Origin: Tridacna crocea
Taxonomy: Eukaryota > Mollusca > Bivalvia > Cardiida > Cardiidae
Assembly (NCBI GenBank): GCA_943736015.1
Contig: OX031062.1
Span: 25,827,462 to 25,891,461 of the forward strand
Direction of reading: 5' to 3'
Length of the DNA stretch: 64,000 nt
Numbering within the stretch: the first letter of the stretch is position 1; each line of letters begins with the position of its first letter. The notes beneath the pieces were generated by a model that worked only from the letters and a program-made list of their open reading frames with translations, was not told where the DNA came from and did not search any database. Both the position numbers and the translations under genes were made by a program. Positions 6,501-52,310 of this stretch are shown here, piece after piece.

Positions 6501-9500
6501 CTTGGAGTTATGTATGTAGCTGTCCAAATGGTTATACAAGATCTAATGATGGATTACAGTGTAACAGTAAGTAGTAATTTTACAGCAAGATTTCATGTTT
6601 TGAACTTTTTATACCTTTTCCTATCTGTTATTTACAAAAATTATCAGTGCATCTGTTTTCATTGCCAATCATCATGATTTTGACAGTTTATGTATAAATA
6701 TCTTAAAATGCTTTGATCCTATATAATACAACAAAATTTTAGACCTGTCCAAGCCCAAAACATATGTAGATGCCAAACTAAATGAGGTAAAACCTGAAGT
6801 TGTCTGTGCTAGGCTTGAGAACAATGTAGGAAAAGGAGGTTAACAATATTTTCTTTTTTCCCCACAATATTTTCAAAAGTTTTCTTTCTCTATATCGTTA
6901 AACGTTGGAATATTGTGGTAAAGAGGTAAAAAGGATATACAGATTTCTTGCATCTAAAAATTCCCATTTGATATGGTTAGTAATGCTAAATCTGTGCAAA
7001 ATACCTTTAGTGAATATAAAGGATGAATAATTCCCAAGGCAAAAAAACTCAGGTGTTTTGAATTTAAAAACCACCACTCCTTGAATACATTTTTTCAGTA
7101 ACTTTAGTAAACTTCGCTTTTCAACATTTGTCTTCTCTATAAATACCTGTAACATGGGTAGGCAGTAACTTAAAGTAACAGTGCTAGTCACATTTATTCA
7201 CATTTTATTTCATGCTTTCAGGTGGGATATCGAGAAATAGCAGTGAAAATATTTTTCGATCTTACACTGGTTCCACCAGTGAAAATACCGATTTTCACAT
7301 TCTTGTTGCCTTGGTAAATTGCGCGTACATAACAACCAGATGGGAAATATGACATCATATACCTTACATTTCTCGCGCTTGACGTAGCTATGCGGGAGGG
7401 GTACGCCACGGGGAATAACGGAAAAGAACTGTACTGGATTTTGATAAAGCTCCTCCTAAAAAGGGTTAAAAGCATGAAATAAATAGAATATTTGTATTTT
7501 TTAGTGAAAGATCGTAATTTATTTCATCTCGTGAACACCATCGGTAATATTTTCACTCGTGGCTCTGCCACTCGTGAAAATATTACCGATGGTGTCCACT
7601 CAATGAAATAAATTTCTATCTTTCACCGAAAAAAACAAATATCCTCTATCTACATGTATTTATTTGCATAGACACTGACGAATGTGCAGATCCTGCCACC
7701 AATCCATGTGACACGGAAGATGCAACATGCACAGACACTGTGGGCAGTTTTACATGTGCTTGCAATTCTGGTTTTACTGGGGATGGATTCTTATGTTCTG
7801 GTATGTTACCAAAGATTTGTTGTTATAAAATGAAGGAAGTTATGTCTATGGCTCTATGAACATTGTTGTAGAATAAAAAGATCTATTGCATATGCTCGAG
7901 AATTTATGACTAAGGCTCTATGTTCATTGTTGTAGAATAAAAAGATCTATTGCATATGCTCGAGAATTTATGACTATGATTCTGTGTTCATTGTTGTAGA
8001 ATAAAAAGATCTATTGCATATGCTCAAGAATTTATGACTATGGCTCTATGGTCATTGTTGTAGAATAAAAAGATCTATTGCATATGCTCGAGAATTTATC
8101 CTGTTTCCATATACGGGGAAAAAAATAATATGACAATTCAACTGATTAGTGTATGCTCACCCTTCATAAACTTTTACCCAACAATCCCCTACTTAAATGA
8201 TCCTGAAGAAAAAGTCTTTTGAAATTATTGTAGGAAAAGGAGAAAATGCTGGATACTAGAATTTTCTTATTTTTATACAATGTTTTCCACCCTTTCAACT
8301 TCTTTAGTCCCTATATTTGTGCTATACATATATAAGGAGTGATCAGAAAGAATGTGGACCAGTGCCAGTATCAGAATATTGTTATAAAAAGCAACTTGAA
8401 GTGTTCCTTATTGTTGAAAGTAGCCCCCTCTGAGTTCTATGCACTTATTCATTCTTGATTTGCATGAGCGAAGCACATCTGGGAGCGCGTCAGAAAATGT
8501 TACCATCAAGGACCCTTGTAGCAAGAGTTAGCTCCTCTCTGCTCTTATAGTGCATGCCACATAGAGAATCTTTCAAAACAGGAGCTAGTCAAAGGACACA
8601 CGGAGTCAGGACTAAATTATATGGAGCATTGGCAAGTGTTTCCATGTTTAGTTTTTTGCAAAGTTTCCAGTTCAAGTATGAAATTTTATACACTGAAGGA
8701 CTTTGAAAACGCAAAAATTGAAATTTATGTAATAATTCAATTTTTTGTTTATCATTTCATTTGAAAATATGCAAAATAAGAACAACTACTTGTTAACAAA
8801 CCTTGTTCTAAATTTCATCCCAAAATATTGAATAATGTAAGAGTAACAGTCTATCAAATAGCAATACCCTTACATTCAAAAGTAGTAATTAATAGCGAGT
8901 GTAACTGCCATTTGCCCCTATGCATGCAGTACATCTCCGCCTCATCGAAAGAACAAGGTTTGCTAGCACTTGCTGAGGAATGTTATTCCATTCATTGATC
9001 ATGCTCAATCGGAGACATGTCTGGAGAAAAAGACGGCCAGTCTAGCACTGGAATCCTATTTGTTGCCAGAAAATTGACAGTGAGGCGGGCACTATGAGCT
9101 GGGGCATTGTCATGTTGGTATATAAAGTTTCCTCTCCTATAATTTTGCCGTAAAAAGGGTAATGCCACAGGACGAAGAACGTTGTCAATGTAACGCATAG
9201 CATTTACATTTCCATTTAAAATAACAAGATCTGTTTTGTTAAACTGGGTTATACCAGCCCACACGTGAACACTGCTACCACCACCATGGTTACGTTTCTG
9301 AACACAGTTCTCCAAAAACCGCTGACCGCGTTCACGGTACACTCTTGTACGGCCGTCGCAATTTTGCACATTAAACTTGGATTCATCAGTAAAAAAACTG
9401 ATCTCCTCTGCCTGCAATTCCATCGTAAGTGAGCCCAAGCCCAGTTTAACCTCGCCGCCTTATGTCTGTCGGTCAAAATGCAATCTTTGTTCGGTCTGTG

Positions 9501-21500: not shown

Positions 21501-24500
21501 ATTGTGATGGTAATTATCAGATTCATCTGAACCCTTAAAGCAGTAAATAAACCCTAAGGACTTTTTCAATGTAGAATAAGGCCAAGATAATTATAATTTT
21601 GTGGTTGCTATTTGTCTGTAGTGTTCCAGTAAAGAGGAAGCACAATGTAGTTCAAAGATCTGACCACTCATTTTGTTATGTTTAATCTTGAACTACATTT
21701 GCTGCAAAGGCAACCATAGTTGTGAAAGATGCTGTAAGGTTCAGCTTCATATTGTCATTATTTGATGTATCTTCCACAGATGACTTTTGAAAACATACGG
21801 TAGTTTTCTTTGAATGAGAAATATTTTGATTTAGCAGAAAATTTTTCTTGTATTCTTAAATCATCTGTTTTCTCTTTCAAAAATTTATGTTGTCAGTTGT
21901 CAATTGTATCATAGAAATGATTCTTTAACCCTTTACCACACAGTACAGACTTTTGAAGACCCTGAAAAAGATGCCCTAGAAAACAATTTTTTGGTCACTT
22001 TTATATTGTTGTCTGCAAATGCTTTTGATTTGGACCAGTCTAAAACTTTATCGTTTGGTAAAGAGTTAAGACAAGAAATTAAATGTGACTTCAAAAACTA
22101 GATTTCTTGTGGAAATGTTGGAAAACATTGTGAGGGAAAGATAATTAAATTACTGGTCACCTCAATGTATCCAGAAGCCTTCATAATTTCATTCATTAAA
22201 AAAACAATACAATACATGAACACATGTGAAGGCATTTTGTTTGAAGGAGAAATTGATTGTTACTGCATTGTCTCTTTAAAACCATTATGTTTTCAAATGT
22301 ATTCATAAGCAAACCATTCCACATAAATATCTGCACTGTTCTTTTTATAGATATAAATGAATGTTCTACATCACCACCCTGTGATTCTACCAGAGGAATC
22401 TGTAGCAACACTGTTGGAGGATTTACATGTGCTTGTTCTGATGGCTACACCCTTGGAGAAAATAATGCATGCACAGGTAATCTTAACTCTTTACAACATG
22501 AGAAAGAAGTGAACTTGCCCAAATTTAAGGCATTTGCAAACAGCAATTTTAATGCAGCTCACATAATGCAATTTTCCTTTGATAGAGTTGAAAACATTGT
22601 GGGAAAAGGAGAAAATGCTGGTAACCAGCATTTTCTCCTTTTCCCACAATGTTTTCAAAAGGCTTCTTTCCCAGGTTCGTTAAAAGTGGACAAAAGTGTG
22701 AAAAGGGTAAATTTTATGAGCTGTGCTTCATGAAGACAGTGTAAAGTGCATTTGCAAAAGGTATCAACCTAACTAATCCTTTACAGTCCTTGCAGGATGA
22801 CTTGGATCGAAACTTGCTGATGCTAAATTTTCTGCATATCAAAGGGCATATCAGTTGGCAAGTTTTAGAATTTAGATCAAAATTTGTGAAAATAGTCCCT
22901 GATATCATGTTACTGTCACCTGTGGTTTAGGGTTTATAGCTGGAACAGCACATACATGCATATACACTTATAAATTGTCAGTTCATACAAAATAAGCAAG
23001 GACTGTTGTGTGCAACATCAACAAAATTCATATATCGTGGGCCTGATGCAGAAAGGAGTCAAGTGACATTTTGACCAAAATTGAGTTAAATGCATTTTCT
23101 TGTTTGTTTTAATGGCTACTACAAACCTGCAAAAGACCAGCTCCCTAGGTAGATAAATAAAAAAATTATTGACCAATAACTAAAGGGTACAAGTGATTTT
23201 TATCCAAATCTTGCATGCAGTAAGGAGTCAAGTCCTTTACCAATTATGCAGAAGGGGGTCAAGTGGCAGATGACTCCATTTTGCACAAACGTACACCTGC
23301 AGTCTTACCAATGTTTTATGATTCATTAAGGGTACAAGTGAAGCACTACAATACCAGATATGTGAGATATGATCAGGAATATGGAAGGAATTTCTACCGT
23401 AATCAGTACTTTTGTTATCATTACTTAGACTTTGTTTACACCACCACTCTCAAGTTATGTGACTTTATTTCAGATAAGTATCTCATTTTGATCTGATTTT
23501 AGGCTGATTGTATTCCTACTTATCCCTAGCCTCTATAGCAAGAGCTATTAATTACAGATTGAGATGTTTCAGGGAAGAAATGAAAGGATAAAAGATTAAA
23601 ATTCTTTATCCTATTCAAATGGTTAAGTAAATTGTCATTCAGTGATTTCACTCTGAATATTTTACTACATGTATATAGTCATTCAGATTTTAAACAAATC
23701 ATATCGGTTATTTAAGAAAGGAATTATAATTTTGCTTACATTTTGATTTAATGAAGATGGGGGTTCTAATGGAGAAGTATGCACATTTCTTGATAATACT
23801 TGCAATCTTAATATGTTGTTTATTTGCGCCTTTAAATGACAATAAGTGTAATAATTTGAATACTAATTATAGCCTTGTGTTTCCACCCTGTAAATTACAG
23901 GCGATTGATCATGTGTCGTAAATACAGGCTTGACAAGGCACTGAGGAAAAAGTATCTCAAAAAGTAAGCTACAATTAGAAGGCAAAATGAACTAAAAGCT
24001 CTTGTCAAAAGTTACATCTTGTTAGAACCTAAACAATCAAGGAGTAAGAAGTAGAACAACCTACACTAATGAAAGAGTGTGGTCAATGACAATGATTGAC
24101 AATTGCCATATACACCTTTCTTGCAAGTTATGAACTAAGTGATGAGAATCATTGTAAATGTAATACAGCAAAGACTGAATGTTCTTGATTGATTGATGAT
24201 ATGGTGCTTTTTGCCATTTTTAACATTATTTCGGTTATATCATGAAGGCCAGTGCATGTATCCAGGCTTTCCTGGAGTTTTTTTTACCAGTACGTGGCAC
24301 AATATTCTTTTCAAGCCACTGATGCTTTTCCATACAGCCATCGTGGAAGCAAGAGTCCGCAGTGAGAGAAGATAAATTCTGTCTCAATGACTATCATCAA
24401 TCCTTTGAAGGAAATTGGCTGAACCCGGAATCAAACCAGCTACCTCCTGTTCTCAAGCCATGTTCGATACCCACTGAGCTACCAGGACTCAGCTACAAGT

Positions 24501-27500
24501 TCTTGAATCTCAAAAACAAATAATTTCTCAACAAATAACACATGTATATGCAGACTAAACCTTCCCAATTACCCAATCTCATATCGGAGGCGTCATCATA
24601 ATGTAGAAATAATCAACGGTAAAATAATCTTCAACCTGTTACTAAATGACTCTATATGTTCTTTTCAAACATGAAAGATCGGAAGTTATTACTCATCTAA
24701 TTTGTTCAAATAATTTATAATATCTATCATTCGTATATCAGGTTGTATAAATATAAGGAAAGTACCAGAAATTGTATGTCAAAACAATCATTATAGTTTC
24801 TCTGTGGCTTGAATATAGAAAATTAATCACTAACACCAATATAGACTTACAAATTGAAGGTTATATTAATTGCTCAAAATGTATTTCTTTCTGGGTCTTT
24901 TGTCCCATGGGGCAGTTATCCTAGGGTATTTTGTCTGATGGCACTTTCATCCTGAGGGGCTTTCGTCCTTCACCAAAGTGTGTATTATATGTAATCTTGT
25001 AATTATAAAGCTATGTTAGCAAGCAAAAATAGTGTTTGTGTTATTTAAGTAGCCTACTTTATCATTTAAATTTTGAATTATTTTTAAATCTAGGAGAGAG
25101 ACAAAAGTCTTACCAATCTCAATGTTTTAATACATTTGAAATGAATGTTTGCTGGATAACTTGATTTCAAAAGTCAATTTGTCATCATGTAGCTCATCTA
25201 CATCCAGAACTGGTAATGAAGAGTTTACAATGCATATACCAAGCATGGCCAAGGTCTTTTCAAAGATCTGTGACAGTTACTACTTCACGATTCATTTTTC
25301 CAGCACTAATGAACATTTTCTGACAATATTGATTTACATGAGATAGAAGCAAGTGGCTTGAAATGAGTACGGTGTTAAGGAAACTGCAGAAACTTGTACA
25401 TAAGCAGGTACACTGATTGATGCCCTATGACTAAAATTATGTCAGAAATGATTATAACTATTTACCAAACAACAAAATTTATAACTTGTACAAATTGAAA
25501 GCATTTGCAGACAACAAAATGAATGGGACATAAATATTTAAACATCACACTGGAAGTCTAGAAAACATTGTGGGAATAGGTGTAAATGCAGGCCACCAGC
25601 ATTTTCTTCTTTTCGCGCAATGTTTTCAGAAGGCCTATTCCTAAGGGTTGTTAAAACAAGAGATTAGTAAAGAGTTAGGAAAGAAAACAAAAAGATTATC
25701 CTATCAAACAAAATATTAAAAGGCAGCAGTACCAGATGAGACTATGAAAATTCAGGCATTGATTTGATTGATTTTACAGACTAATTTGGAACTCCAGCAT
25801 GTTGCTTAACTCATTACCAAATGACAAAATTTCAGACTGGTCCAAGTGACTGAGAATTTGAAATTTGTTTTGTGAAGAGTAAAAAACATTGTGGGAAAAG
25901 AAGAAAATGCAAGTTACCGGCATTTTCTCCCTTTCCCACATTGTTTTCTCAAGGCTTCTCTCTCAAGGTTGTCAAAAGTAAGGTTGTGTGATAATGGGTT
26001 AACATGAGCATCTGTTTGAGACGAGATTTACACAACTGAATTGTAGTTTTTATTAATTTTTTGACTCATTTTGTACTCATTTCTGAACACATACAATGCA
26101 CTTGACACCTTTTGGCAAAACAAAACAGAGCAAAAACGTCCGTGCAGAAAGGTGTCATGTGCAAAAATCATCAAAATACAAAAAATGCAACAACTTATTT
26201 TCAAAACACTTATGTATGAATAATCCTCATTAATATGTTTATCTTCAGCACCAAAAAGTTTTGAGGCAGAGGAGCTTTCTGATTTATACTAAAGAGTCAA
26301 ACCTTTAACCTCGTTTTTCTCAAAATGTTAAAAATGTCACTTGACTCCTTTCTGCATCAAGCCCACGATATATATTTAGACAGGGATGGTGGATATACTG
26401 CCTGGAGTGCCTGGTCTACATGCAGTGCCACTTGTGGTGTAGGGATTACAACTAGAACAAGAACATGTACAAATCCAACTGTACAGGGTAATGGGGCCCC
26501 ATGTAGTGGACCGGACACAGACACAGAGACGCAATCTTGTACCCAGGATCCTTGTCCAAGTAAGTTGTTTTTAATAAAAAGGTGTTTATATTACCATCTT
26601 AGGATTGAGTGGTTTTTTGACACATTTACATATAATTGTAACTGATCATACAGGTTCAAAACAATATTGACTCCTTCACAGACAAATATGTAACATTTAC
26701 ACTTTTAGTAACAGTAAGGAAAGAGTTAATAGGAGTGATAAGCTTTTTAGGACACAGACTTTTTGTGCATATAACAGCTTTTGAAAAAAAGAATGTGGAA
26801 AAGGGAGTAATTACTTAACCCTTTCCTAAACAATCCCTGGTTTTCACAACTCTGAAAAAGAAACCTTTTGAAAACATTGTGGGAAAAGAAGAAAATGCTG
26901 GTAACCAGCATTTTCTCCTTTTCTAACAATGTTTTCTACCACACCGGAACAAATTTCAATTTTTGACTCATGTGAATTTTGTTGTCTGCAAATGCTTTCA
27001 ATTTGGACCGTTCTAAAGATTTGTTGTTTGGTAAAGAGTTAAGAGGGCTGTTTGATAAATTTGTGGAATTTGTTGTAAAAACCATATTTCTTGGTATTTA
27101 GAGCTAACCTTTTGCCTATAATAGAATGAATGTATTGTAAATTTGATGTAAAAATTTTAAAACATTTGTAACGAAATATCTGTGTAACAGTAGGAACCTA
27201 TGTTACGCACATTGCTGGGCTTCAAATTTTTTTTTTCTGATTTCAAACATACCGTTTTGTTTGAAAGAAACATTTGAAAGAGTCTGAAAATGGCACCATT
27301 TATACAAACATGCTACCAGGAGTGTGATTTGAACCTTCAACAGTGATTGGTATAAAGTCACATTTAACATGTGGGTCTCAAAACAGAAAATGTATGAACA
27401 TTCAAGGGGATTATGTTGAAAAAGTACTCTTATCGCTTAAATTGTAATGATGTTGACGTTATTTATTCATATCTAGAGCCCAGCAATGTACGTTCACATG

Positions 27501-30500
27501 TCTTTTGTAATTGATTGTTAAAAATGTTTCTTTATATATATTTAAATGAAATATACAGGAGTTTTCAGATATAGATAAATGAATATGTATACCAAATATG
27601 GCCCCTTAGTTCCATTTATACATTAGAATTCCATGAATTTATCGAACAGCCCTCATATAAAAACAGTGTCATAATTGTGGTACCTTTTCCTACTATTTTA
27701 TCAGTACTGTTTGAAAAAAAAAACGTAAGAAAATGAGAAATTACTTATACAAACAGTAACTGTCTGAAAAATTATCAAAATTATGGAAACTTTTCTCTCT
27801 ATGTTTTACGACTGTTCAAAATAACATAATTGTCTGAAAAATTATCGTAATTATGGCACCTTTTCCCCCTTTTCCTGCTTTATTTCATTATTTTTTTAAA
27901 CGACATGATGGCGCTTAACTTTTCATTATTCATTTGTTTTCTTGCAGTAACAACTGAAGAAGTTGATAATGGAATCAATATGACATTGTCAGGATTAACG
28001 ATTTCACAGGTCTGTGATAGTTTTGCAATATCCTGTTATAATAATCCAAACTATGATTTCTATGTAAAAACACAGTGATTCTTGGTTTCAATGTAATAGG
28101 GATGGCAAACATGTTCTTTCCTATTGCATGTTTGAGAGATGTCCTATATGATGTCAGAAAAGCATAAAATGACCTCATAGATTAACCTTTTATTACATTT
28201 CACAACTGAATTTTGGAATTTTCTTTATTGAGAGCACTTGTTGAGAACAATTGAAAAGCATGGCTCATATTATGAGACTTGTGTGTAATAGGATAGAAAA
28301 CATTGAAGAAAAAGGAGACTATGCTGGATAACAGCATTTTCTCATTTTCCAACAATGTTCTCAAAACCTCAAAAGTCTTTAACCCCCAGGATTATGTGGA
28401 AAGGGGCAAGTTCACTCCATTCCTATGATTACTAGAGATAGCTCGCCTCATCTACATATCCCTGTTGAGTCTGTTGTTAATAAAATGTGAAGTGGCAAAG
28501 CTAAATATGCTTTTGAATCAAATCAAATTTTATCCTAGATATGGATTCCTATTGAGAAGTTGGTTGTATGTAATTTTTTGTCATCTACAAATGGTGCCTG
28601 TCTGGAAAAGTGTATAATTTTGATATTTGATAAAGAGTTAAAACCTTTTGTGCAAGTCGTCAGAATCTTTTCTTTCACACCTGTTTAAAAAAAGTGGATG
28701 GTTCAAATGTAGAGTAATGTAACCTGAAAAATAATGACTTTTTTAACTAGGGCTCAAATTCCATTCTTCATCTTTACTAGCTCTGGTGTCTTTAGGGTAA
28801 TGTTGCATTGTTTTAGCAGTATAAATGTTGACTGTAAAGTAACAACAATCATAGAACAAGAAATAGGGTATGATATACAGAGCAGTATTTATTGACAATG
28901 ATATGTTTTGTGTCATGTATTTTTATTATATGTGTTTCTTTATTTCAGTTCGAGTCAATAGTCTCTCAGTTTAAATCAAGTGTGGCATCAAGTATTAATG
29001 GTTATTGTAGTTTGAACCAAGCCAATGCTAGAGCTTGTTGTAATAATCAGCTGAATTACAGGTATTTGAACTTTGCCTTGTATTAACTCTACCAAACGGC
29101 ATAATTTAGGACTAGTCCAAATTGGAAGCATTTGCAGACACCAAAATTAAGGTGACTCAAAATTTGGTTTTTGTTTTGGGAACAATAGCACTGTCGGACA
29201 AGGAGAAAATGCTGATTACCACCATTTTCTCCTTTTCCCACAATGCGCTTAGAAGTCTTCTTTCTCAAGGTCATGAAAACCTGGGCCTATTTTAATTTTA
29301 TCCTTTACCTTCAACTCGTTCAAAAGCCTTGCCTATAACGGTTTTCAAAACTCAGGATTATGTGGTTAAGGATTAAAGCATATGGCTTGTAGTTGGTAAT
29401 TCCTGGTTCATAACGCTCTTTTAGGGCTGGTCTTCCTTACTTCGGCAATGCATTGCAGACCCATAGCCTTATGCTGTTGAAACCCATACAAGATATCAAA
29501 TATTGCTACTTTATGACTTTGAATAAGGCATGTCATATTCAAACAAACAAGTAGATCTGCCTGAAAAACTGTTATCAAGCTTTTATTTTGTTTTTATCTG
29601 TTCATTTTATCCCCCCTGATTTCTTAATTGTCAGTTTCAGCTGGTCATTTGAAAACATTCAGAAAGTATCTATTTGATACTACATTTAACCTATACCTAA
29701 GGGAAAGTTGGAGCTATAATTAGTGTGCCATTTGCAAATTCTTTCAAATTGGTTGAGTCTAAAATTTTGATGTTTGGAAAAGAGTGATTTAACTTTGAGA
29801 TAAAAGGCTGTTGAAAACACTGTTGGAAAATGGGAAAAATACTGGTAACTAGGAAATTTGTCTTTTCCTACAGTATTTTCTACCCTTTCAAAGACATATC
29901 CCATTATTATAGCCACGTTTCATTTGTTGTCTGTAAATGCTTTTAATTTGTGCAAATTTGAAATTTTGTAGTCTGGTAAATAGTTGTTAAACTCTTTACC
30001 ACACAATCCGACTTTTAACGAGCCCTGAGAAAGAAGCCTTTTGAAAATATTGTGGAAAAAGGAGAAAATGCTGGTAACCAGCATTTTCTCCTCTTCCCAC
30101 AATGTTTTCTACCCTTCTCAATCCAAATTTCAATTTTTCAGTCAGATTTATTTTGATTGTTGGCAAATGCTTTCAATTTGGACCAGTCTAAACTTTTCTT
30201 GTGTGGTAAAGAGTTAATTCTTTACCACCTGACAAATTTTGGACTTATCCAATTTCAAAATACCTGCAAACCACAGCAATAATTTCGCTACAGAAATGCT
30301 TCAATTCTGTGATAGGATAGAAAAAAATTATGGCAAACGGAAAAAATGCTGGTTACCAGCATTTTCTCCTTTTCTCACAGTGTTTTCAAAAGCTGTCCCT
30401 CTCAGGGTCTTTAAAAGTTTGGGTTGTTTAAGGGCTTGAAAAAAGGTTCATTCTTTATTTAAATCATTTTATTTTCAGTCCAACATCATCACTAACATTT

Positions 30501-33500
30501 ACAAGTGCAGATAATGTGCTTATATCATCTGGATATCCTACACTGAACACAGATGATACTTTACAAGTTTTGTTTGTTGTAAAGTATGACCCAACTAACA
30601 GTCTCTGTGCATCAGGGACAGCCAGACGGAGAAAGAAAAGATCATTGTTGACTGGAAATGAAGCCTTTATAACACAAGATACTTTGTTGCTGATCATACA
30701 GACACAGTAAGTTAACTGATTTCTCAAGGTGGGTAAAAAGTCTGTAAAACATTACCACTTACAGGTGAGTTTTTTATGCTCCCAGAAACATTTCGGGTGA
30801 GCATATAGTTACCACACTGTGCGTACATCCCTGTGTCGGTGCGTCCGTTTGTCCGAAGCCATTTCTCCACAACCCGTGGACCAAATTTTATGAAACTTCA
30901 TACCTGAACTCCTTGGAACAATGCACAAATACATTTTTCCCAGTTTTTCAATTTGAGACTGCATCATGGAAAAAGGGGGCTTCATGTAAAAAATTGTTTT
31001 CACTAATATCTCCTACATCAGTGCTCAAAACTTTGTGAAATTTCAAATTTTAAATTGTTGGAACATTGCCCAGATACCTCTTTCCGGATTTCTCAAGTAC
31101 AGGCTGCATTGCAAAAAATGGGGGCTTCATGTAAAAATTGTTTTCCTCTAATACCTCCGACATTAGTGCTCAAAAGTTCATGAAATTTCAAATCTAAATT
31201 CGTCGGAACATTGCCCAGATACCTTCACCTGGTTTCTCAATTTCAGGCTGCGTCACAGAAAAAGGGGGCTTCATGTAAAAAATAAAATCATATTATGATA
31301 CCTCTTTCCTGGTTTCTCAATTACAGGCTGGGCCGCAGAAAAAGGAGGCTTCATGTAAAAAAATGTTTTTCTCTAATACATGTATTGGGAATATCTCCAA
31401 GATAGTAATTGCTTTTTCACTTCAATTTTTCGGGACATTAATAGATCGTTTTATGATAAAGGAATTGAAATTTATATTAATTTCATACATTTTATGACAA
31501 GCACTTGTTCGGGGAACATAACCCATCTCTGACGGCTCTTGTTACATCTGACACTGGTTTTCATAGGCAAAGTGAAGCTTTTGTCATCACCATGTTCTTG
31601 TCTGCACCATTTTATATGCCCATAGGGTCATATTATGTTATGGCCCCAGTTGTCCATTTGTCCATTAGCAGTTTCTGGTGGACACATATCCTCCTGCAGA
31701 TTTGACTGAAGTAAGTTCAAACTTACCACAATGAATCTCTCTAATGTGTAGTTGTGCATGTGACTTTCATAATTTGGATATCTGCAGGCATTTCTAGATT
31801 TCTTATACCTCCTCAAATAAAGATTCAGTGGGAACACTGATCATGTGTGTATTATACAGGGTGTTTCATAATATCTGCCACTGTTACAAAGTTTTATATC
31901 TTTACTAAAATATATATTAAAATTCTATTTGACTAATCAAGTACGGGAAAATGTCAACGTCATAAGGTCATTTATGATGTCATTTCCTGTGGTCAGTTTT
32001 CCAAGATGGCCCCAAGTAAGGATCACTGCAAAGAAATTGTTAAAATATATTATGAAACTAAATCACCTATTACAGTGATTAGAACTATGCAGAAAAGGTA
32101 TCCAGAAGTAGGTAAACTTGATAAAAAACAGATACATAGAATTGTAAAGCGATTTGAAGTTATGGGCTCAATTGAAGATGGGAGACACAGTAATCTGGGT
32201 CGCCCCAAGTCCGTGCGGAATGAAGCAACAATTGAACAGGTTAAAGCGGTGATCACAGAAACACCAAGAAAATCTGTTAGAATGGTATTTGGAGATATTA
32301 CTAACATTGCCAGCCATTCAAGTGTTTACAGAATGCTAAAATATGATTTAAAACTGACTCCATATAAAATTTCTATTATGCAACACCTCAAACCAACAGA
32401 TATCGAAAGCAGATTGTCATTTGCAAGATGGGTTACAGAAAATGATGATATCATTGGACAGATATGGTTCTCGGATGAAGCCCACTTTTATCTAAATGCA
32501 CAAGTGAACAAGAAGAATTCCCATATTTTGGGGAACTGAAAAGCCACAATTTTATATTGAAAAACCTCTCCACTCTGAAAAGGTTACAGTGTGGGTGGCA
32601 TTAAGTGCCGAGGGCATAATTGGCCCGTTCTTTTTTTAGGATGAGGATGGAATTGTGGAGACTGTAAATCAAGACTGCTATTTAAATATTCTTAAAAACT
32701 AATTTCTACCAGCTTTGAGACGTAAGGGAATTGATGTAAATACCACATGGTTTCAGCAGGATGGTGCAACTCCTCATACAGCTAGAAATGTGATTGACTT
32801 GATACAAAGACTTTTGGTGATAACTTCATTTCATTGAAAACGGATATTGAGTGGCCACCACACTCCCCAGATTTCAGCCCACTTGAATTTTTCCAGTGGG
32901 GATACCTTAAAGACAGGGTCTATAAGCACTCCCCACAGACCACAGCTGAACTCAAAACTGCAATCAAGAGAGAAATGAAGATCATAAGCAATGAGACATG
33001 TGCAAATGTAATCCGAAATTTTCGGCACAGAGTCGACGTTGTTATTGGCCAGAATGGACGTCATTTAAAACATATTCTATAAAATTGACATTTTAAAGAA
33101 TTTTGAAACTGCGTGTATTTACAAGGGTAATACCTACATGTTACATATCAAATAAAATTTTAATCTATGTACAATAACATAGTTAAATGTAAAAACATAA
33201 TTTCTTTTTTATGTTAAAGTTTTTGATGTTTAAAATGGTGGCAGATATTATGAAACACCCTGTACCTTAAATTTATACATCTCCATTTTACTGGAATGCT
33301 TTGTTAGTCTTTGTTGCAAATCATTCTCAGGATTATAATGAATTATCAGAACTGCAAGAAGGATATTAGTTAGATCATTATTTTTTATCAGTGATTGCAA
33401 CACTTTCATTTTAATCCATTTAAACACAGAAAATAGTTGTATATTTTCCTAGTGCTGAAAACTTTTGAAGCATGTAAGAAATTGAGTAATTACTTATATA

Positions 33501-36500: not shown

Positions 36501-37898
36501 CGGCAAACATTCTCTACTAAGTTTGCTCAAATCAGGCAACTTTTTGCCACACACCAAAAGGCCTAGGGCTTTGTTATTATACCTTCAAAACTCTGTTCTG
36601 GAGGTATATAGGAGTCAGCTTGTTGGTCCGTCCGTCCATCCATCCATCCATCAGTCTTTCTGTAGCATTTTCTTGTCAGAGCTTGTTCTCAACAACTACA
36701 GGACAGATTTCATTCAAATTTTAGAGAGACTCGGTGCCAAGCAAGAATGTGCATATTATATTTTGGTGACGGTTCATTGAATTTTTACAAAGTCATTTTC
36801 CTTTGATGAAATTTCTTGTTCTCCCTATTTTTCAACAACTATTGGACAAATATCATTCAAACTTCTCTTAAATATTTATATAACCGGGTTTGGGTTAAGA
36901 AAGATTATCTTCTTATCTAAACCAAGAAGACCTAAAGCTTTGGCCTTGCACTTCGATATTTGGTATTTATCTTCATTGTAAATCTTTACTGCTTGGTACT
37001 CAGGTGAGCGATATAGGACCATCATGGTCCTCTTGTTTCTCTCAGGGTTGTGAAAATTTGGGATTGTGTGCTAAAGAGTCAATAGAATAGAGTAAGATTT
37101 AAAAATGTTTTCTGTTTCAGGTTGAGGATGATGATGATACACCGGGATGGGTGATTGCTGTGGCAGTCATTGGTTCTGTAGTGGCTGTTGTGATTATAGT
37201 ATTGATCATATATGTACTAGTTAAACTGTAAGTAAACAGTCTAATCTGATCTACTTTTTTACTATCATCTTTTGGCTCTGTGATTCCAAAATTATGATTT
37301 AACCCTCAACCAAACAAATGCAAGTTTCAGTAACTTCAACTGAAAAGTTTTTGTCATCAGCGAATGATTTCAATGTGGACAAGTCTAACATTGTAGTTAC
37401 TGTCATCTTGGAAAGAGTTCAACATTTTTTGTAAGGGATTTGAACAAAAGTGGTGAAGCCTATACTTAGTTTCTCTTAGTTAAGTACATTGATGTAAATT
37501 TCATACTACAGAAGCTTGCACAAAGTAAGAAATGAATTCATTAGTAAATGAAGTACTTTTCAAACAAAGACATTTATTTTAAAAGAAAGATTATGTTCTT
37601 GCCCTATTGTTGGTTGAAATGTCTCAGAATGAAACGAAGTAAACATTCTACTTTTATTTTACTATATTATGTGATTTTTTTTTTCAGAAAAAGTAATAAA
37701 GTTGAGGCTTTTAGAGAAAGTCAGGAAGATGTAGGTCAAGGGGGAAGTCAAGGTCACAGACAAGTAGGTCAGAGTAGGGGCCAAAGTCAAAGACATCAAC
37801 AGAGCAGAGGCATTGAACCAAATCTTCAACAGCAGAAACACGCTCAAGGACAGACTCACCAAATTTCTGTTGTACCAGTGGAAGAAGTAGAAATATAG
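406..37898 (+). CDS. Multi-EGF / TSP1 type I membrane protein, 5'-truncated gene (26 exons seen)
   Basis: Joined exons: 406-513, 1026-1142, 2669-2803, 3721-3849, 4647-4769, 5298-5441, 5959-6087, 6441-6566, 7672-7800, 10669-10794, 12383-12514, 13394-13513, 14313-14453, 16002-16118, 18084-18209, 19613-19741, 20268-20390, 21384-21509, 22351-22476, 26380-26559, 27948-28009, 28949-29061, 30479-30706, 34551-34668, 37121-37227, 37688-37898. All introns are GT-AG and the phases chain without a break to TAG at 37896-37898. Domains in order: thrombospondin-like EGF half, 18 six-cysteine EGF modules, TSP1, unrecognised ectodomain with a polybasic site, acidic linker, one TM helix, cytoplasmic tail. Start codon and signal peptide lie upstream of the window. 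By family knowledge such EGF/TSP1 ectodomains bind matrix or cell-surface ligands and many EGF modules here have the calcium-binding consensus; a receptor or adhesion role is inference. I do not recognise a named orthologue. Confidence 0.9.
1026..1142 (+). CDS. Exon 2: calcium-binding EGF domain
   Basis: Phase 1-1 exon of 117 bp encoding a complete six-cysteine module that starts DVDEC and has the NEVGGFTCSC segment typical of cbEGF. Acceptor TTCTTTTAG, donor ACAG/gtgag. Confidence 0.9.
1201..1425 (+). mobile_element. Family A MITE, plus orientation, slightly degraded ends
   Basis: Begins TTAGCCCTTTACCAAAC, with palindrome arms GAGAAAATACTGG / CCAGCATTTTCTC. The right end has a T-rich expansion before GTTTAGTAAAGA. 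Confidence 0.75.
1466..1498 (-). mobile_element. Family A MITE, left part interrupted by a SINE
   Basis: Left end TTTTTACCAAGTGACAAAATTTTAGATTG. The same element resumes at 1796 after the SINE insertion, repeating the last 16 bases. Confidence 0.75.
1499..1795 (-). mobile_element. tRNA-derived SINE inserted in a MITE, with 16-bp target duplication
   Basis: Read on the - strand it starts with a tRNA-like head: box A-like TGGCTCAGTGGTAGGGTGG and box B-like GGGTTGTGGATTCG, then a body shared with the other SINE copies. Flanking direct repeats ACAAAATTTTAGAYTG at 1483-1498 and 1796-1811 differ at one base. No ORF is expected. Confidence 0.8.
1796..1965 (-). mobile_element. Family A MITE, right part after SINE insertion
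   Basis: Continues the copy begun at 1466: GACTGGTCCAAATTC, then the palindrome arms and GTTTTCTAATACC. The distal TTAA end is degraded. Confidence 0.7.
1975..2199 (-). mobile_element. Family A MITE, full copy with TTAA on both sides
   Basis: 225 bp from TTAACTCTTTACTATAC to GGTGAAGAGTTTAA. The centre reads TGATTACCA, so it is slightly off a perfect palindrome. Confidence 0.82.
2333..2628 (-). mobile_element. Family A MITE with internal duplication of the left arm
   Basis: The arm GGAAAACATTGTGGGAAAAG occurs twice (about 2444 and 2507), separated by a short non-palindromic stretch; only the second is followed by the complementary arm. The left end is TTAACTATTTACC. Confidence 0.75.
2669..2803 (+). 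CDS. Exon 3: calcium-binding EGF domain
   Basis: 135-bp phase 1-1 exon. DIDEC opening, NNTVGGFTCSC core and six cysteines, with a longer loop (TDTGSGKDGQ) before the last cysteine. A foldback MITE ends about 40 bp upstream of the acceptor. Confidence 0.9.
2949..3160. mobile_element. Family B foldback MITE, degraded copy
   Basis: Ends GTAATTTACCCCATAAGAC and GGAGTAAAAGGTTAA. The centre retains ACAAATGGTTACGAGCAATTT only on one arm. Compare the intact family B copies at 33619 and 40833. Confidence 0.7.
3721..3849 (+). CDS. Exon 4: calcium-binding EGF domain
   Basis: 129-bp phase 1-1 exon, acceptor TGTATTTCAG. Encodes DINEC, then QNTAGSFTCTC, with six cysteines and the calcium-binding consensus. 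Confidence 0.9.
4647..4769 (+). CDS. Exon 5: EGF domain
   Basis: 123-bp phase 1-1 exon, acceptor CTTCCAG. Starts DIDDC and has six cysteines. The usual N-x-x-G-G segment is replaced by DGVNTFTCAC, so calcium binding is less certain. Confidence 0.88.
5298..5441 (+). CDS. Exon 6: divergent EGF-like domain
   Basis: 144-bp phase 1-1 exon, the longest of the EGF series. It opens ANVDC without the calcium-binding acidic pair, has six cysteines, and carries an NTTTSTC insert between the second and third. A non-calcium EGF module is the best reading. Confidence 0.82.
5959..6087 (+). CDS. Exon 7: calcium-binding EGF domain
   Basis: 129-bp phase 1-1 exon, acceptor TTCACAG, donor GAAG/gtaatt. DIDEC, NTDGGYTCTC and six cysteines. 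Confidence 0.9.
6441..6566 (+). CDS. Exon 8: EGF domain
   Basis: 126-bp phase 1-1 exon, acceptor TATATTACAG, donor AACA/gtaagt. DIDEC and six cysteines, but the core reads NSPWSYVCSC instead of N-x-x-G-x-F/Y. Confidence 0.87.
7203..7484. mobile_element. MITE-like element with TIR-like ends TTTATTTCATGC...GCATGAAATAAA
   Basis: Short inverted ends TATTTCATGCTTT and AAAAGCATGAAATA enclose about 250 bp of more GC-rich DNA (CTTGACGTAGCTATGCGGGA). No supported ORF. Confidence 0.55.
7499..7637. repeat. Long inverted repeat (hairpin), about 65-bp arms
   Basis: The arm CATCGGTAATATTTTCACTC is followed by GTGGCTCTGCCAC and then the complement GAGTGAAAATATTACCGATG-like arm. It continues outward with AATTTATTTCATC and its mirror, and GTGAAAGAT/ATCTTTCAC at the tips. 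Confidence 0.75.
7672..7800 (+). CDS. Exon 9: calcium-binding EGF domain
   Basis: 129-bp phase 1-1 exon, acceptor TTTGCATAG, donor TCTG/gtatg. The first codon, split across the intron, gives N: NTDEC, then DTVGSFTCAC and GFTGDGFLC. Confidence 0.88.
7838..8100. repeat. 64-bp tandem repeat, about four copies
   Basis: The unit contains GAATAAAAAGATCTATTGCA and TATGCTCGAGAATTTATG. Its CTCGAG marker recurs at 7895, 7959, 8023 (as CTCAAG) and 8087, an exact 64-bp period. Copies are nearly identical, so the expansion is recent. Confidence 0.88.
8338..8690 (-). pseudogene. Mariner-type transposase remnant (3' part)
   Basis: The - strand translation, with stops, contains LANAPYNLVLTPCVL, a decayed form of the mariner YSPDLxPCDF catalytic region, then KSREELTLATRVL and MNKCIELRGGYFQ, matching the C-terminus of mariner transposases. 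It is cut off at 8690 by a Tc1-like element; more 5' sequence may continue after 10231. Confidence 0.65.
8691..10229 (-). mobile_element. Tc1-like DNA transposon with TIRs and TA duplication
   Basis: Inverted repeats CACTGAAGGACTTTGAAAAC (8691) and the complement of CACTGAAGGACTTTGAAAAT (ending 10229) run for about 40 bp and are flanked by TA on both sides (8689-8690, 10230-10231). Inside is one transposase gene on the - strand. Length 1,539 bp, typical of the superfamily. Confidence 0.9.
8992..9931 (-). pseudogene. Tc1-like transposase, two exons, inactivated
   Basis: Exon 1 (9931-9654) starts MPCLSEHERSGAIGML and encodes the paired-type HTH (VSDVARHYNCYPSTILRLRD). The donor GG/gtaagt at 9653 and acceptor TTTAATTGCAG at 9559 bound a 95-bp intron whose phase joins GFQG to LPIHARTVRRR. 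Exon 2 then has an in-frame TGA (9521-9519, probably a decayed CGA) and a frameshift near 9430, after which FFTDESKFN, HVWAGI, YQHDNAPAHSA and WPSFSPDMSPIEH give the DDE catalytic domain. The frame ends at 8992. Not functional as it stands. Confidence 0.85.
10231..10560. other. Intron sequence right of the Tc1-like element, no gene seen
   Basis: Joins the mariner remnant broken at 8690. Weak - strand similarity to mariner (VRILLDTGS...) fades after about 100 bp and nothing else is recognisable. Confidence 0.4.
10669..10794 (+). CDS. Exon 10: calcium-binding EGF domain
   Basis: 126-bp phase 1-1 exon after an intron swollen by transposons. DLNEC, QNSIGGFQCFC, GFTLNADNRTC, with six cysteines. 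Confidence 0.9.
10878..11135 (-). mobile_element. tRNA-derived SINE, degraded
   Basis: It shares with the 24195 copy the body TTTGC(T)CAATATT...CCAAGCCACTGG...GCATCAGCAGT and the phrase CTATCATAAGTTCTCAAA. The tRNA-like head (AACCAGAGAACCTTAGGTCTC) is eroded. Confidence 0.65.
11171..12125 (+). mobile_element. Helentron-like non-autonomous element with 156-bp tandem core
   Basis: The 5' end follows a T run (AGCTTTACTGGCTGAAGAGC). The 3' end is a hairpin GGCCCTTCAGGGCC followed by TTCTAG and then TT. Sub-terminal inverted repeats CTTTACTGGCTGA and TCTGCCAGTAGAG pair. The core has five units marked by CTTGTTTACGCGATAAAG at 11255, 11411, 11566, 11722 and 11878, preceded by a TCTGTCCGTC stretch. 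Resembles bivalve 'pearl'-type/HINE elements (established class; membership is inference). Confidence 0.7.
12383..12514 (+). CDS. Exon 11: calcium-binding EGF domain
   Basis: 132-bp phase 1-1 exon, acceptor TATTTACAG, strong donor CAAT/gtaagt. DVNEC, TNTVGGFTCSC, six cysteines. Confidence 0.9.
12709..12937 (+). mobile_element. Family A MITE, full copy, plus orientation
   Basis: TTAACCCTTTACCAAACAG to GTTTGGTAAAAGGTTAA, 229 bp, central GTTGGTTACCAGC. Confidence 0.85.
13394..13513 (+). CDS. Exon 12: EGF-like domain, non-calcium
   Basis: 120-bp phase 1-1 exon after CCTTTTGTAG. Encodes STSVCADNHGC and CTCERGNELNADGLTC with six cysteines but no D-x-x-E-C opening. A second in-frame acceptor 9 bp downstream (AACTTCAG, exon from 13403) would drop three residues, so a NAGNAG-like choice is possible. 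Confidence 0.8.
14313..14453 (+). CDS. Exon 13: calcium-binding EGF domain
   Basis: 141-bp phase 1-1 exon, acceptor TTCCTGTTGTAG. DINEC, NNLPGSYSCVC, six cysteines and a long last loop (TNTSLYTQVEEDR). Confidence 0.88.
15149..15377 (-). mobile_element. Family A MITE, full copy, minus orientation
   Basis: TTAACCTGCTACCAATC to TTCGGTAAGAGGTTAA. The arms carry a GAAGAAGGAG/CTTCTTTTC mismatch. Confidence 0.82.
16002..16118 (+). CDS. Exon 14: calcium-binding EGF domain
   Basis: 117-bp phase 1-1 exon, acceptor GCTCTTTTCAG. DIDEC, QNTVPGFTCTC, six cysteines. Confidence 0.9.
16268..16580 (+). mobile_element. tRNA-derived SINE with an expanded G-rich head
   Basis: Box A-like TGTAGCTCAGTCAGTAGAGT and box B-like CTGGTTTGATCTATGG flank an inserted direct repeat AGTGCAAGAAGGTGGG and a G run of about 18. 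The body (GTGACTTGGAAAGAATATTG, AGGTGCACTGGCAGC) is the reverse complement of the - strand copies. Confidence 0.75.
16651..16879 (+). mobile_element. Family A MITE, full copy, plus orientation
   Basis: TTAACCCTTTGCCACGC to TTTGGTAGAGAGTTAA; centre CTGGGAACCAG. Confidence 0.85.
16914..17116 (-). mobile_element. Family A MITE with deleted central palindrome
   Basis: TTAA at both ends and the outer arms are intact, but the core is reduced to ACATTGTGGTTACACCC. It begins 35 bp after the previous copy in opposite orientation. Confidence 0.75.
17828..18044 (+). mobile_element. Family A MITE, full copy just upstream of exon 15
   Basis: TTAACCCTTTACCACAC to TTTGGTAATGAGTTAA. The exon 15 acceptor lies 39 bp beyond its end. 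Confidence 0.85.
18084..18209 (+). CDS. Exon 15: calcium-binding EGF domain
   Basis: 126-bp phase 1-1 exon, acceptor TTTTGTTTTAG. DINEC, TNTDGAYTCAC, GYSGNGIQC. A complete MITE ends 39 bp upstream. Confidence 0.9.
18763..18835. repeat. Inverted repeat of the GATCAGACTGC family, diverged
   Basis: ACACAGATCAAGATTAGAAT pairs imperfectly with ATGCAGTCTGATCTTG across a short loop. Better copies lie at 48713-48774 and 61014-61060. Confidence 0.5.
19318..19584 (+). mobile_element. Family A MITE with two palindromic cores
   Basis: Two cores sit in tandem (around 19365-19440 and 19460-19530), each GGGAAAAG...GCTGGTAA...CAGCAT. The right end is GTTTGGTAAAGGATTAA at 19584, 28 bp before exon 16. Confidence 0.75.
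19613..19741 (+). CDS. Exon 16: calcium-binding EGF domain
   Basis: 129-bp phase 1-1 exon, acceptor CCGTGTTTCAG. DIDEC, VNSEGSFTCTC, six cysteines. A MITE TTAA end lies 28 bp upstream. Confidence 0.9.
20268..20390 (+). CDS. Exon 17: calcium-binding EGF domain
   Basis: 123-bp phase 1-1 exon, acceptor CTTTTTTCAG. DIDEC, TNTDGGFECSC, six cysteines. A MITE begins about 8 nt after the donor. Confidence 0.9.
20975..21285 (-). pseudogene. Mariner transposase remnant in the exon 17-18 intron
   Basis: On the - strand, with stops and shifts, DNVSSHKALSVCDFL is followed by HHPAYSPDLAPCD, the mariner catalytic region, and about 50 residues on CFQSSV...ICIMSNGGYFER matches the C-terminal region. No intact frame or terminal repeats are seen. 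Confidence 0.75.
21384..21509 (+). CDS. Exon 18: EGF-like domain, non-calcium
   Basis: 126-bp phase 1-1 exon, acceptor TTGCCTTTCAG. VNSEC opening, KTNGTDTCLCSEGFEL, six cysteines, no acidic opening pair. Similar in style to exon 12. Confidence 0.85.
21925..22069 (+). mobile_element. Family A MITE deletion derivative without palindrome
   Basis: 145 bp with both TTAA ends (TTAACCCTTTACCACAC and TTTGGTAAAGAGTTAA) but the whole hairpin core is missing after GAAAACAATTTTTTGG. Confidence 0.78.
22351..22476 (+). CDS. Exon 19: calcium-binding EGF domain
   Basis: 126-bp phase 1-1 exon, acceptor CTTTTTATAG. DINEC, SNTVGGFTCAC, six cysteines. A complete MITE begins 6 nt after the donor (ACAG/gtaatcTTAACT). 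Confidence 0.9.
22483..22711 (-). mobile_element. Family A MITE starting 6 nt inside the intron after exon 19
   Basis: TTAACTCTTTACAACAT starts immediately after gtaatc of the donor. The central palindrome GAGAAAATGCTGGTAACCAG is perfect. Confidence 0.82.
24195..24494 (-). mobile_element. tRNA-derived SINE inside the 3.34-kb element
   Basis: Reverse strand head: box A-like GGTAGCTCAGTGGGTATCGA and box B-like GCTGGTTTGATTCCGGGTTC, then a body containing CAGTGGCTTGAAAAGAATAT and TGCCACGTACTGGTAAAAAA. Confidence 0.82.
25445..25678 (-). mobile_element. Family A MITE, diverged, inside the 3.34-kb element
   Basis: TATTTACCAAACAACAAAAT, AAAGCATTTGCAGACAAC and arms TGGGAATAGG / TTTTCGCGCAATG; the right end GATTAGTAAAGAGTTAGG lost its TTAA. 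Confidence 0.72.
25806..26002 (-). mobile_element. Family A MITE, nested inside the 3.34-kb TIR element
   Basis: TTAACTCATTACCAAAT to GTGATAATGGGTTAA; arms slightly diverged (GCAAGTTACCGGCATT). Confidence 0.8.
26380..26559 (+). CDS. Exon 20: thrombospondin type 1 (TSP1) repeat
   Basis: 180-bp phase 1-1 exon encoding one TSP1 repeat: GGYTAWSAWSTCSATCGVG, an RTRTC strand and a C-terminal CTQDPCP, six cysteines. WSAW is a C-mannosylation motif and CSATCG an O-fucosylation motif of the family. The acceptor at TATATTTAG (26378-26379) is the one that keeps frame; the nearby CAG at 26381-26383 does not. The terminal repeat of a 3.34-kb transposon ends only 7 bp before this exon. Confidence 0.88.
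26815..27042 (+). mobile_element. Family A MITE, full copy, abutting a TA-type MITE
   Basis: TTAACCCTTTCCTAAAC to TTTGGTAAAGAGTTAA. Its last TTAA base pairs are immediately followed by the TIR GAGGGCTGTTTGATAAATT of the next element. Confidence 0.83.
27042..27655. mobile_element. 614-bp palindromic MITE with TA target duplication
   Basis: Terminal inverted repeats GAGGGCTGTTTGATAAATT (left) and the complement of GAGGGCTGTTCGATAAATTC (right), flanked by TA. An inner inverted pair (CGCACATTGCTGGGC near 27196; GCCCAGCAATGTACG near 27478) extends the foldback. No ORF. TA flanks suggest Tc1/mariner-type mobilisation. Confidence 0.72.
27948..28009 (+). CDS. Exon 21: start of membrane-proximal ectodomain
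   Basis: 62-bp exon, acceptor TTTTCTTGCAG, donor ACAG/gtctgt; enters phase 1, leaves phase 0. Encodes ITTEEVDNGINMTLSGLTIS, a short beta-strand-like lead with an N-glycosylation site (NMT). Confidence 0.72.
28949..29061 (+). CDS. Exon 22: membrane-proximal ectodomain, helical Cys-containing part
   Basis: 113-bp exon, phase 0 to 2, acceptor TTTATTTCAG, donor ACAG/gtattt. Encodes FESIVSQFKSSVASSINGYC followed by a pair of adjacent cysteines (RACCNNQ). The pattern is reminiscent of the first helix of SEA-like modules but I cannot assign a family. Confidence 0.75.
29987..30216 (+). mobile_element. Family A MITE, full copy, sharing a TTAA with the next copy
   Basis: TTAAACTCTTTACCACAC to TGTGGTAAAGAGTTAA, 230 bp. 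Confidence 0.84.
30213..30436 (-). mobile_element. Family A MITE, head-to-tail neighbour sharing TTAA
   Basis: Begins TTAATTCTTTACCACCTG at the TTAA that ends the previous copy. The right end GGGTTGTTTAAGGGC is degraded. Confidence 0.75.
30479..30706 (+). CDS. Exon 23: membrane-proximal ectodomain with polybasic furin-type site
   Basis: 228-bp exon, phase 2 to 2, acceptor TTATTTTCAG, donor CACA/gtaagt. Encodes a strand-rich segment (DDTLQVLFVVKYDP), one cysteine, then ARRRKKRSLL, which fits the R-x-K/R-R furin consensus with S at P1'. Cleavage would split the ectodomain from a membrane-anchored stub; this is inference. Confidence 0.8.
30776..31541 (+). mobile_element. Helentron-like element with about 145-bp repeats (ATGCTCCC type)
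   Basis: The 5' end after a T run is ATGCTCCCAGAAACATTTCG, with GGGTGAGCAT forming a hairpin. GCGTCCGTTTGTCCG follows. Core units are marked by GGGGGCTTCATGTAAAAA at ~30976, 31121, 31265 and a short one at ~31345. The 3' end is GGGGAACATAACCC...GGCTCTTG then TT, with TATGCTCCC/GGGGAACATA as sub-terminal inverted repeats. Confidence 0.66.
31857..33262 (+). mobile_element. IS630/Tc1/mariner-superfamily transposon with TIRs and TA duplication
   Basis: Inverted ends CAGGGTGTTTCATAATATCT (31857) and the complement of the same (ending 33262), 26 bp or more, flanked by TA at 31855-31856 and 33263-33264. 1,406 bp with one + strand transposase. The near-perfect TIRs indicate a fairly young insertion. 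Confidence 0.9.
32006..33082 (+). pseudogene. IS630/Tc1/mariner-type transposase, frameshifted
   Basis: The first frame (32006-32539) encodes an N-terminal HTH region (IVKIYYETKSPITVIRTMQK) and the first catalytic Asp block WFSDEAHFYLN. An extra T in a T run near 32526 shifts the frame and ends it. Downstream, in other frames, are VTVWVALSAEGIIGP, FQQDGATPHTAR and WPPHSPDFSPLEFFQWGYLK, the second and third catalytic blocks, ending RHLKHIL at 33082. An in-frame TAA near 32700 and a further shift near 32815 also break it. Confidence 0.85.
33619..33847. mobile_element. Family B foldback MITE
   Basis: The outer arms differ from family A (CATTTCTATGGATCTCTAA; GTAGAAATGAGTATCTATGG) but the core has the same layout: GAAAACATTGTGACAAAAGG, TGAAATTGCT, centre, then the complement. 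Ends TAGCCCTTTACCCC and GGAGTAAAGGGTTAA. Confidence 0.82.
34009..34239 (-). mobile_element. Family A MITE, full copy with perfect palindrome
   Basis: TTAACCCTTTCCCAAAC to TTTGGGAAAGGGTTAA. It closely resembles the copy at 45751-45979 (shared CCAGACC and TTGGGAAAGG variants), so the two are recent relatives. Confidence 0.85.
34236..34445 (-). mobile_element. Family A MITE sharing TTAA with the preceding copy
   Basis: TTAACTCTTTACTAAAC to TTTGGTAAAGGTTTAA. Arms are diverged (GGAAAAATGAGACCAGC). Confidence 0.78.
34551..34668 (+). CDS. Exon 24: end of membrane-proximal ectodomain
   Basis: 118-bp exon, phase 2 to 0, acceptor ACCATTGTAG, donor AAAT/gtgagt. Encodes NSLVTTIVNQGEVVLGITLP and a Ser/Thr-rich linker. 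Hydrophobic alternation suggests beta strands. Confidence 0.78.
35058..35216 (-). mobile_element. Family A MITE, left part, broken by a Helentron-like insertion
   Basis: GAACTCTTTATCAAACAAC, GTCCAAATTGAAAGC, then the left palindrome arm up to GGTTACCAGC. The complementary arm is missing; the distal end resumes at 37036 (TTCTCTCAGGGTTGTGAAAA...). Confidence 0.75.
35217..37035 (+). mobile_element. Helentron-like element with 166-bp tandem core, nested in a MITE
   Basis: The 5' end after a T run is AGCTCACCTGAGCAC with GGTGAGCT forming a hairpin, then GTCCGGCGTCCGTCCGTCC. Five 166-bp units are marked by CCCAAACCGTAAGGGCTAGA at about 35460, 35626, 35792, 35957 and 36123. The 3' end is CTCAGGTGAGCGATATAGG, hairpin GGACCATCATGGTCC, then TCTTG and TT. 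Sub-terminal inverted repeats GCTCACCTGAG/CTCAGGTGAGC match. A C13/A19 run sits at ~36204-36238 and a second element's 5' end is nested at ~36577. Confidence 0.72.
36577..36680 (+). mobile_element. 5' end fragment of another Helentron-like family, nested
   Basis: TTATACCTTCAAAACTCTG with GGAGGTATATAGG forming a hairpin, then TTGGTCCGTCCGTCCATCC. The layout (hairpin then CCGTCC repeats) mirrors the starts at 30776 and 35217, so a related element has been partly captured here. Confidence 0.5.
37121..37227 (+). CDS. Exon 25: acidic linker and transmembrane helix
   Basis: 107-bp exon, phase 0 to 2, acceptor TCTGTTTCAG, donor AACT/gtaagt. Encodes VEDDDDTPG followed by about 25 hydrophobic residues (VIAVAVIGSVVAVVIIVLII...) and a Lys, as in a type I stop-transfer segment. 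Confidence 0.88.
37688..37898 (+). CDS. Exon 26: cytoplasmic tail and stop codon
   Basis: Final coding exon, acceptor TTTTTTTTTCAG, stop TAG at 37896-37898. The tail of about 70 residues is rich in Gln, Gly, Ser and His and ends VEEVEI. The V-x-I C-terminus would suit a class II PDZ ligand, which is inference only. No kinase, ITAM or SH2-type motif is seen. Confidence 0.85.
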
Positions 37899-52093: not shown

Positions 52094-52128
52094 GATCAAT
52101 GTCTGTGTGCAGTGAAAACTGGAGATTA

Positions 52129-52148
52129 GGCAAACTGAAATGAAAATA
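52129..52148 (-). promoter_or_regulatory. Probable 3' splice site in the 5' UTR of the LRR gene
   Basis: On the - strand the sequence GTATTTTCATTTCAG ends at 52135 and would start an exon at 52134, 41 bp before the chosen ATG. It implies an upstream non-coding exon, which I cannot locate. Confidence 0.45.
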
Positions 52149-52310
52149 CAAAAGCAGCAATCAGGCTTGAAAAGAGTTCTGTAATTAAGTTTACATCTAC
52201 AAATCCCATATAACAAGCACATATAATAAATTATGTCAATGTGGCCTGACATTCACTCTTAATCAGACCTTTTCATGTTTTATTGCTTATTTCGACACTT
52301 TTTTTCCAAT

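Follow-up and report, generated by a model that had tools for sequence, protein, structure and literature searches.

A DNA transposon ending 12 nt upstream of a TSP1 exon in Tridacna crocea and its possible effect on exon inclusion

The SOS splicing of Zhao et al. 2026 is reportedly triggered by pairing of terminal inverted repeats (TIRs). For exon 3 of RABL5, two inverted Alus within one intron, the nearer of them 24 nt from the exon, are described as making the exon alternative (Lev-Maor et al. 2008, PMC2533698). In the available portion of that report, a larger distance between the two Alus raised skipping, and Alu pairing was also found to present an enhancer; simple masking is thus not the whole mechanism at RABL5 (PMC2533698). 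Here we describe a locus of the bivalve Tridacna crocea that resembles the RABL5 Alu pair in having inverted repeats in one intron with the nearer one only tens of nt from the exon, an arrangement that at RABL5, as far as the available part of the source relates, went with a shift from constitutive to alternative use (PMC2533698). The window analysed is a stretch of 64,000 nt, and the genome searched for related sequences comprised 1.05 Gb in 31 contigs.

The host gene and its TSP1 exon

The window carries part of a forward-strand gene that, upstream of the window, holds a long Thr/Ser-rich stretch together with AMOP-like and VWD-like stretches, named by eye. Seventeen EGF-type exons were recognised in the window by motif, two of these being confirmed by Pfam, and a likely membrane-spanning segment was placed by eye at about 37103-37228, where Pfam gave no match. 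The gene product reads as a mucin-like membrane protein. The gene has one TSP1 exon in the window, encoding the whole domain (positions 2-49 of the 49 in the TSP_1 profile); its only match in the genome at the sensitivity of our search was itself, and a paralogous empty site was not found. The exons that concern us are the following:

22351-22476, forward strand: preceding EGF exon (EGF_CA, E = 3.6e-11; phase 1-1; donor GTAATC at 22477)
26380-26562, forward strand: TSP1 exon (TSP_1, E = 1.5e-14; 183 nt; phase 1-1; donor GTAAGT at 26563)
27948-28009, forward strand: next exon (acceptor TTTTCTTGCAG; putative end at 28009, set by the GT at 28010)

The intron before the TSP1 exon measures 567 nt in its native form and 3,903 nt with the inserted element. 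From the exon at 22351-22476 into that at 27948, the reading frame is kept whether the TSP1 exon is included, extended by six codons or skipped, and this may be why the insertion was tolerated. An earlier note on this DNA had held that skipping would cause no frameshift, and the phase of 1 at both ends of the exon, with the frame kept into 27948, bears this out.

Elsewhere in the window, near-identical open frames starting every 145 nt between 42217 and 44626 form a tandem repeat of about 145 nt, and 49229-52252 on the reverse strand is one uninterrupted open frame of 1,008 aa whose product looks by eye like a leucine-rich-repeat protein that also has a Ser/Thr-rich stretch and a membrane segment.

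Anatomy, relatives and age of the element

The element and its flanking duplications, delimited by comparison with its relatives, are arranged as follows:

23032-23035, no strand: left copy of the target duplication, ATAT (identical 4-bp flanks are found in 23 of 26 two-ended copies)
23036-26367, no strand: transposon copy, 3,332 bp, its ends set by 35 other copies
23036-23077, forward strand: left TIR, an inverted repeat predicted to pair as RNA with the right TIR of this intron
26326-26367, forward strand: right TIR, an inverted repeat reading outward into the TSP1 exon
26368-26371, no strand: right copy of the target duplication, ATAT, from the 4-bp flank comparison among copies

The inverted arms at 23030-23077 and 26326-26373 are 48 nt long and 94% complementary, and the TIR core was matched four times in the window at three or fewer mismatches (twice exactly), against 0.01 matches expected from shuffles. 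With its terminal inverted repeats, a target duplication of fixed length (4 bp) and dispersed copies that have common ends, the element has the marks of a cut-and-paste DNA transposon. The longest stop-to-stop frame lying wholly inside it is 90 aa, and no transposase was evident by eye in a 7.1-kb relative (L052). Subterminal partial copies of the TIR motif occur inside the element in both orientations (23214-23265 and 26097-26163) and are possibly further transposase-binding sites.

Other mobile or repeated sequences were seen in the window. Broken Tc1/mariner-type transposase-like frames lie on the forward strand in introns of the same gene at 31937-32536 and 32703-33079 (DUF4817 helix-turn-helix, E = 2.5e-8; the rest by eye), and a 155-aa open frame on the reverse strand at 8995-9459 resembles by eye the C-terminal part of a Tc1-type transposase. 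The window also contains numerous occurrences, among them 22588-22658, 25559-25627, 25880-25948 and 26868-26936, of a palindrome about 67 nt long (GAAAACATTGTGGGAAAAG... with its reverse complement); it is part of a longer dispersed repeat and is found in the flanks of several copies of the element.

A genome search with positions 26200-26420 gave at least 40 scored matches (92 candidates), and all but one of the 39 matches outside the window stop between 26366 and 26382. The exact 37-nt outward end has 52 occurrences in the genome, the same letters reversed having none. For 36 copies compared with their flanks (the window copy and 35 others), both ends were present in the fetched stretch in 26, the window copy included, and in 23 of these the two 4-bp flanks are identical; as a control, the left flank of one copy was set against the right flank of another, and 117 of 650 such pairings agreed, a level of 18% that arises because the targets are A/T-rich. 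Five of the first 20 copies (L009-L013) are colinear with the window copy over the whole 3.3 kb, at 97.2-99.6% identity in aligned columns, the remaining 15 giving piecewise matches of about 73-100% and belonging mostly to a related subfamily. By eye, L010 and L024 lie in a common dispersed host sequence and each shows the empty site of the other. In all, two pairs of copies, L013/L040 and L010/L024, occupy by eye what seem to be shared dispersed targets (ACTG and AAAT/ATTT sites). Among the open frames beside 62 element ends of the 35 copies, none was obviously a known exon by eye.

Based on these copies, the right end of the element lies at 26367, and 26368-26371 is target duplication, resembling the TIR because ATAT is self-complementary. 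The earlier note had drawn the element from 23031 to 26372; its right boundary was rejected, the other copies ending at 26367, and moves by 5 bp. The gap between TIR and TSP1 exon, which it had put at 7 bp, becomes 12 nt, made up of 4 nt of duplication and 8 native nt.

Compared with its five closest sisters, the window copy has eight private substitutions in 3,332 bp (0.24%), an upper bound for change after insertion because some of them may be older. None of these falls in the right TIR, whose last 45 bases are identical in 27 of the 35 other copies and differ at one position each in the other eight. The earlier note had offered a choice between native signals that were replaced and the replacement tolerated, and a TIR that was co-opted. 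The geometry upholds the placing of the TIR where the native signals stood, if the exon is spliced at 26380, but co-option was rejected, since the right TIR has no private change and has the family sequence found in those 27 copies; the low acceptor score and the youth of the copy also speak against it. No element sequence that had been changed or kept for splicing was found, nothing in the TIR appears to be tuned for splicing, and nothing suggests adaptation. On the ground of youth alone, the insertion could still be polymorphic.

Splice signals and competing readings of the insertion

From the right TIR to the exon, the positions that bear on splicing are these:

26339-26345, forward strand: branch-like ACTTGAC, without statistical distinction; its A at 26344 stands 36 nt upstream of the exon
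26346-26358, forward strand: pyrimidine-rich TCCTTTCTGCATC of the right TIR, from reading the sequence
26360-26361, forward strand: AG inside the right TIR, 18 nt upstream of the acceptor AG; score -2.4
26372-26379, forward strand: native acceptor remnant ATATTTAG, the sole native bases between the duplication and the exon

The acceptor AG of TTTAG, at 26378-26379, is outside the element. Because only 12 nt part the element from the exon, the range of the branch site and pyrimidine tract falls within the transposon. In this the earlier note was right: the pyrimidine stretch that it quoted (26343-26358) is inside the TIR with TTTAG beyond, and, given splicing at 26379/26380, the branch point that it assigned to the transposon must fall within the right TIR when at an ordinary distance. 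Its further claim that splicing of the exon depends on mobile DNA agrees with this geometry, on the sole condition that this allele does use the exon.

Our best reading, which we regard as evenly poised between right and wrong, is a young accidental insertion that leaves the acceptor weaker and the TSP1 exon optional. A DNA transposon that lacks a long reading frame recently inserted here and left 8 native nt including the acceptor AG, steps to which the anatomy, target duplication and youth of the copy attest. It follows from the geometry that the branch site and pyrimidine tract native to this AG were parted from it, with the right TIR now in their place. Read outward, the TIR happens to offer a branch-like site and a short pyrimidine tract, and the exon may still be recognised, if poorly. 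The weakening is predicted from a lower acceptor score, a competing earlier AG and pairing with the left TIR some 3.25 kb upstream in the intron, and in animals that carry this allele the TSP1 exon would then probably be skipped part of the time, without loss of frame.

Acceptors were scored with a profile of 72 EGF_CA exon acceptors of this genome, every training site being EGF_CA. From 150 listed exons, 80 were picked, a choice that passed over those of the window and kept a single member of a tandem array. Sequence was obtained for 60 of these, of which two were dropped with AG absent at the expected place. The 58 fetched sites and 16 from the same gene gave 74, less two near-duplicates. 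The same-gene set holds 16 of the 17 EGF-type acceptors, the open frame at 10617 being dropped with AG absent at the expected place, and real sites were scored with each left out in turn. Fourteen EGF_CA matches on contig C6:61425020-61519516, with equal or near-equal scores at a spacing of about 7.1-7.3 kb, form a recent tandem array.

With the element, TTTAG scored 3.6 (five of the 72 real acceptors are lower), and the rebuilt empty site scored 5.9 (11 of 72 lower). The 16-site same-gene profile gave 3.2 with the element versus 8.2 for the empty site, on a scale where real sites ran from -9.8 to 19.6. The U content at -25 to -4 is 0.27 with the element, a value below which none of the 72 real acceptors falls, while one of 72 falls below the empty site. 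On these scores the native acceptor would already have been rather weak, and the insertion would have weakened the part near the exon further; with the empty site already weak, use of the exon may have been alternative even without the element. The branch-site score of the TIR site carried no information, being equalled or exceeded in 1,198 of 2,000 random windows.

Both TIRs lie in one intron and are predicted to be able to pair in the pre-mRNA, the RNA duplex being predicted at -72.9 kcal/mol versus a mean of -12.4 and a minimum of -26.6 kcal/mol for 300 random pairs of the same length from the same stretch. In the minimum-energy fold of 23001-26420, positions 26331-26359, with the branch-like site and the tract, are fully paired with the left TIR, as are 26361-26373; 26360 and 26374-26376 are unpaired, and 26377-26381, where the acceptor AG lies, are bound to exon positions 26414-26418. 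Both the duplex and the fold are predictions for naked RNA. This TIR-TIR complementarity and the AG inside the TIR are points additional to the earlier note.

For our best reading stand the fall in acceptor score from 5.9 to 3.6, the low U content, the TIR duplex, the RABL5 precedent and a frame that is kept in all outcomes. Against it stand a simple tract score that favours the TIR stretch (16, versus 7 for the empty site; random positions have a median of 10 and a 90th percentile of 22), an empty site that was already weak, a profile built from EGF_CA exons only, the seven of 72 real acceptors that have an AG within 18 nt upstream, a duplex predicted for naked RNA, and the finding that masking is not the whole mechanism at RABL5. 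We also put forward, tentatively and as a model with considerably less confidence, a self-masking acceptor, in which one TIR would supply the branch site and tract and the other would pair with it and hide them, so that pairing would set the inclusion of the TSP1 exon with all outcomes in frame. The TIRs read alike outward from both ends, so any copy beside an exon could mask itself in this way in either orientation.

The tract scores of 16 and 7 also suit a rather doubtful alternative, namely that the TIR is an adequate replacement whose branch-like site and tract equal the native ones, with the exon always included at TTTAG. The T at -3 is normal, being found in 18 of the 72 real acceptors, and the score of 3.6 exceeds that of 92.6% of the other AGs in the window; however, only five real acceptors out of 72 have a lower score, a U content this small is seen in none of them, and the predicted pairing between TIRs also counts against full replacement.

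The opposite outcome, in which the acceptor is abolished and transcripts of this allele never contain the TSP1 exon but stay in frame, we consider unlikely. The low acceptor score, the burial of the signals in the predicted fold and the survival of the frame would all be consistent with it, but real sites span the score of this one (those five being lower), and the donor GTAAGT and the domain are intact, although youth alone would explain both.

Use of the TIR AG at 26360-26361 would add 18 nt that keep the frame and contain no stop codon. Together with the final G of the preceding exon they read GCC CAC GAT ATA TAT TTA, or AHDIYL, before DRDGGY; the added residues would be encoded by transposon, target duplication and native acceptor. 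This AG is the first past the tract and stands 17 nt after the branch-like A, its preceding pyrimidine content is above that of 58 of the 72 real sites, and, according to the available part of one report, a new AG is chosen when its distance downstream of the branch point exceeds about 8-12 nt (PMC7969005). Its use is nonetheless highly improbable, with an A at -3 as in only one of 72 real sites and a score of -2.4 that is below all 72. The seven of 72 real acceptors that tolerate an AG within 18 nt also mean that the TIR AG does not rule out TTTAG. Least probable is a misplacement of the element through assembly error or a collapsed repeat, which the single haplotype of one individual and the repeated family might invite, but which the matching 4-bp duplication, the complete element with both ends and the eight substitutions absent from five sisters argue against.

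Significance and comparison with known systems

Transposons near splice sites are common, and an element end 12 nt from an exon with a partner TIR offers a clean natural test of control by TIR pairing. Should the insertion still be polymorphic, single animals would allow a comparison of the filled allele with the empty one. The locus is also a warning that an exon which looks intact in an assembly may be skipped in that allele. No description of this arrangement was found in the open-licence literature, as judged by title or the opening of the abstract.

For RABL5, the available part of the source describes retroelements, Alus with imperfect pairing over about 280 nt and a branch site between the nearer Alu and the exon (PMC2533698), unlike the locus here, at which pairing involves the TIR itself, within which both the branch site and the pyrimidine tract would lie. 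Introners are similar in that DNA-transposon ends and target duplications serve as splice sites, with 4-bp target duplications and TIRs in some introner families, but in the portion of that paper available they make a new intron inside an exon (PMC9860276), whereas here an existing intron was enlarged and only its 3' signals were replaced; without the element, a 567-nt intron with GT and AG remains, and no new intron in coding sequence has arisen. As with transposed elements that add or remove branch-point competitors in OGDH intron 4a, an insertion near splice signals would alter exon choice; the elements tested there, according to the part of the report at hand, are MIRs acting on a mutually exclusive exon pair, and TIR pairing has no place in that part (PMC7969005). 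SOS splicing likewise concerns DNA transposons in animal transcripts, but as the available part of a review has it, elements are excised there from mRNA by non-spliceosomal cleavage and RTCB ligation (PMC13247085), whereas the element here is intronic and would leave with the intron. The kind of event is therefore known, and the unusual part is a replaced acceptor with a near-perfect RNA partner in the same intron.
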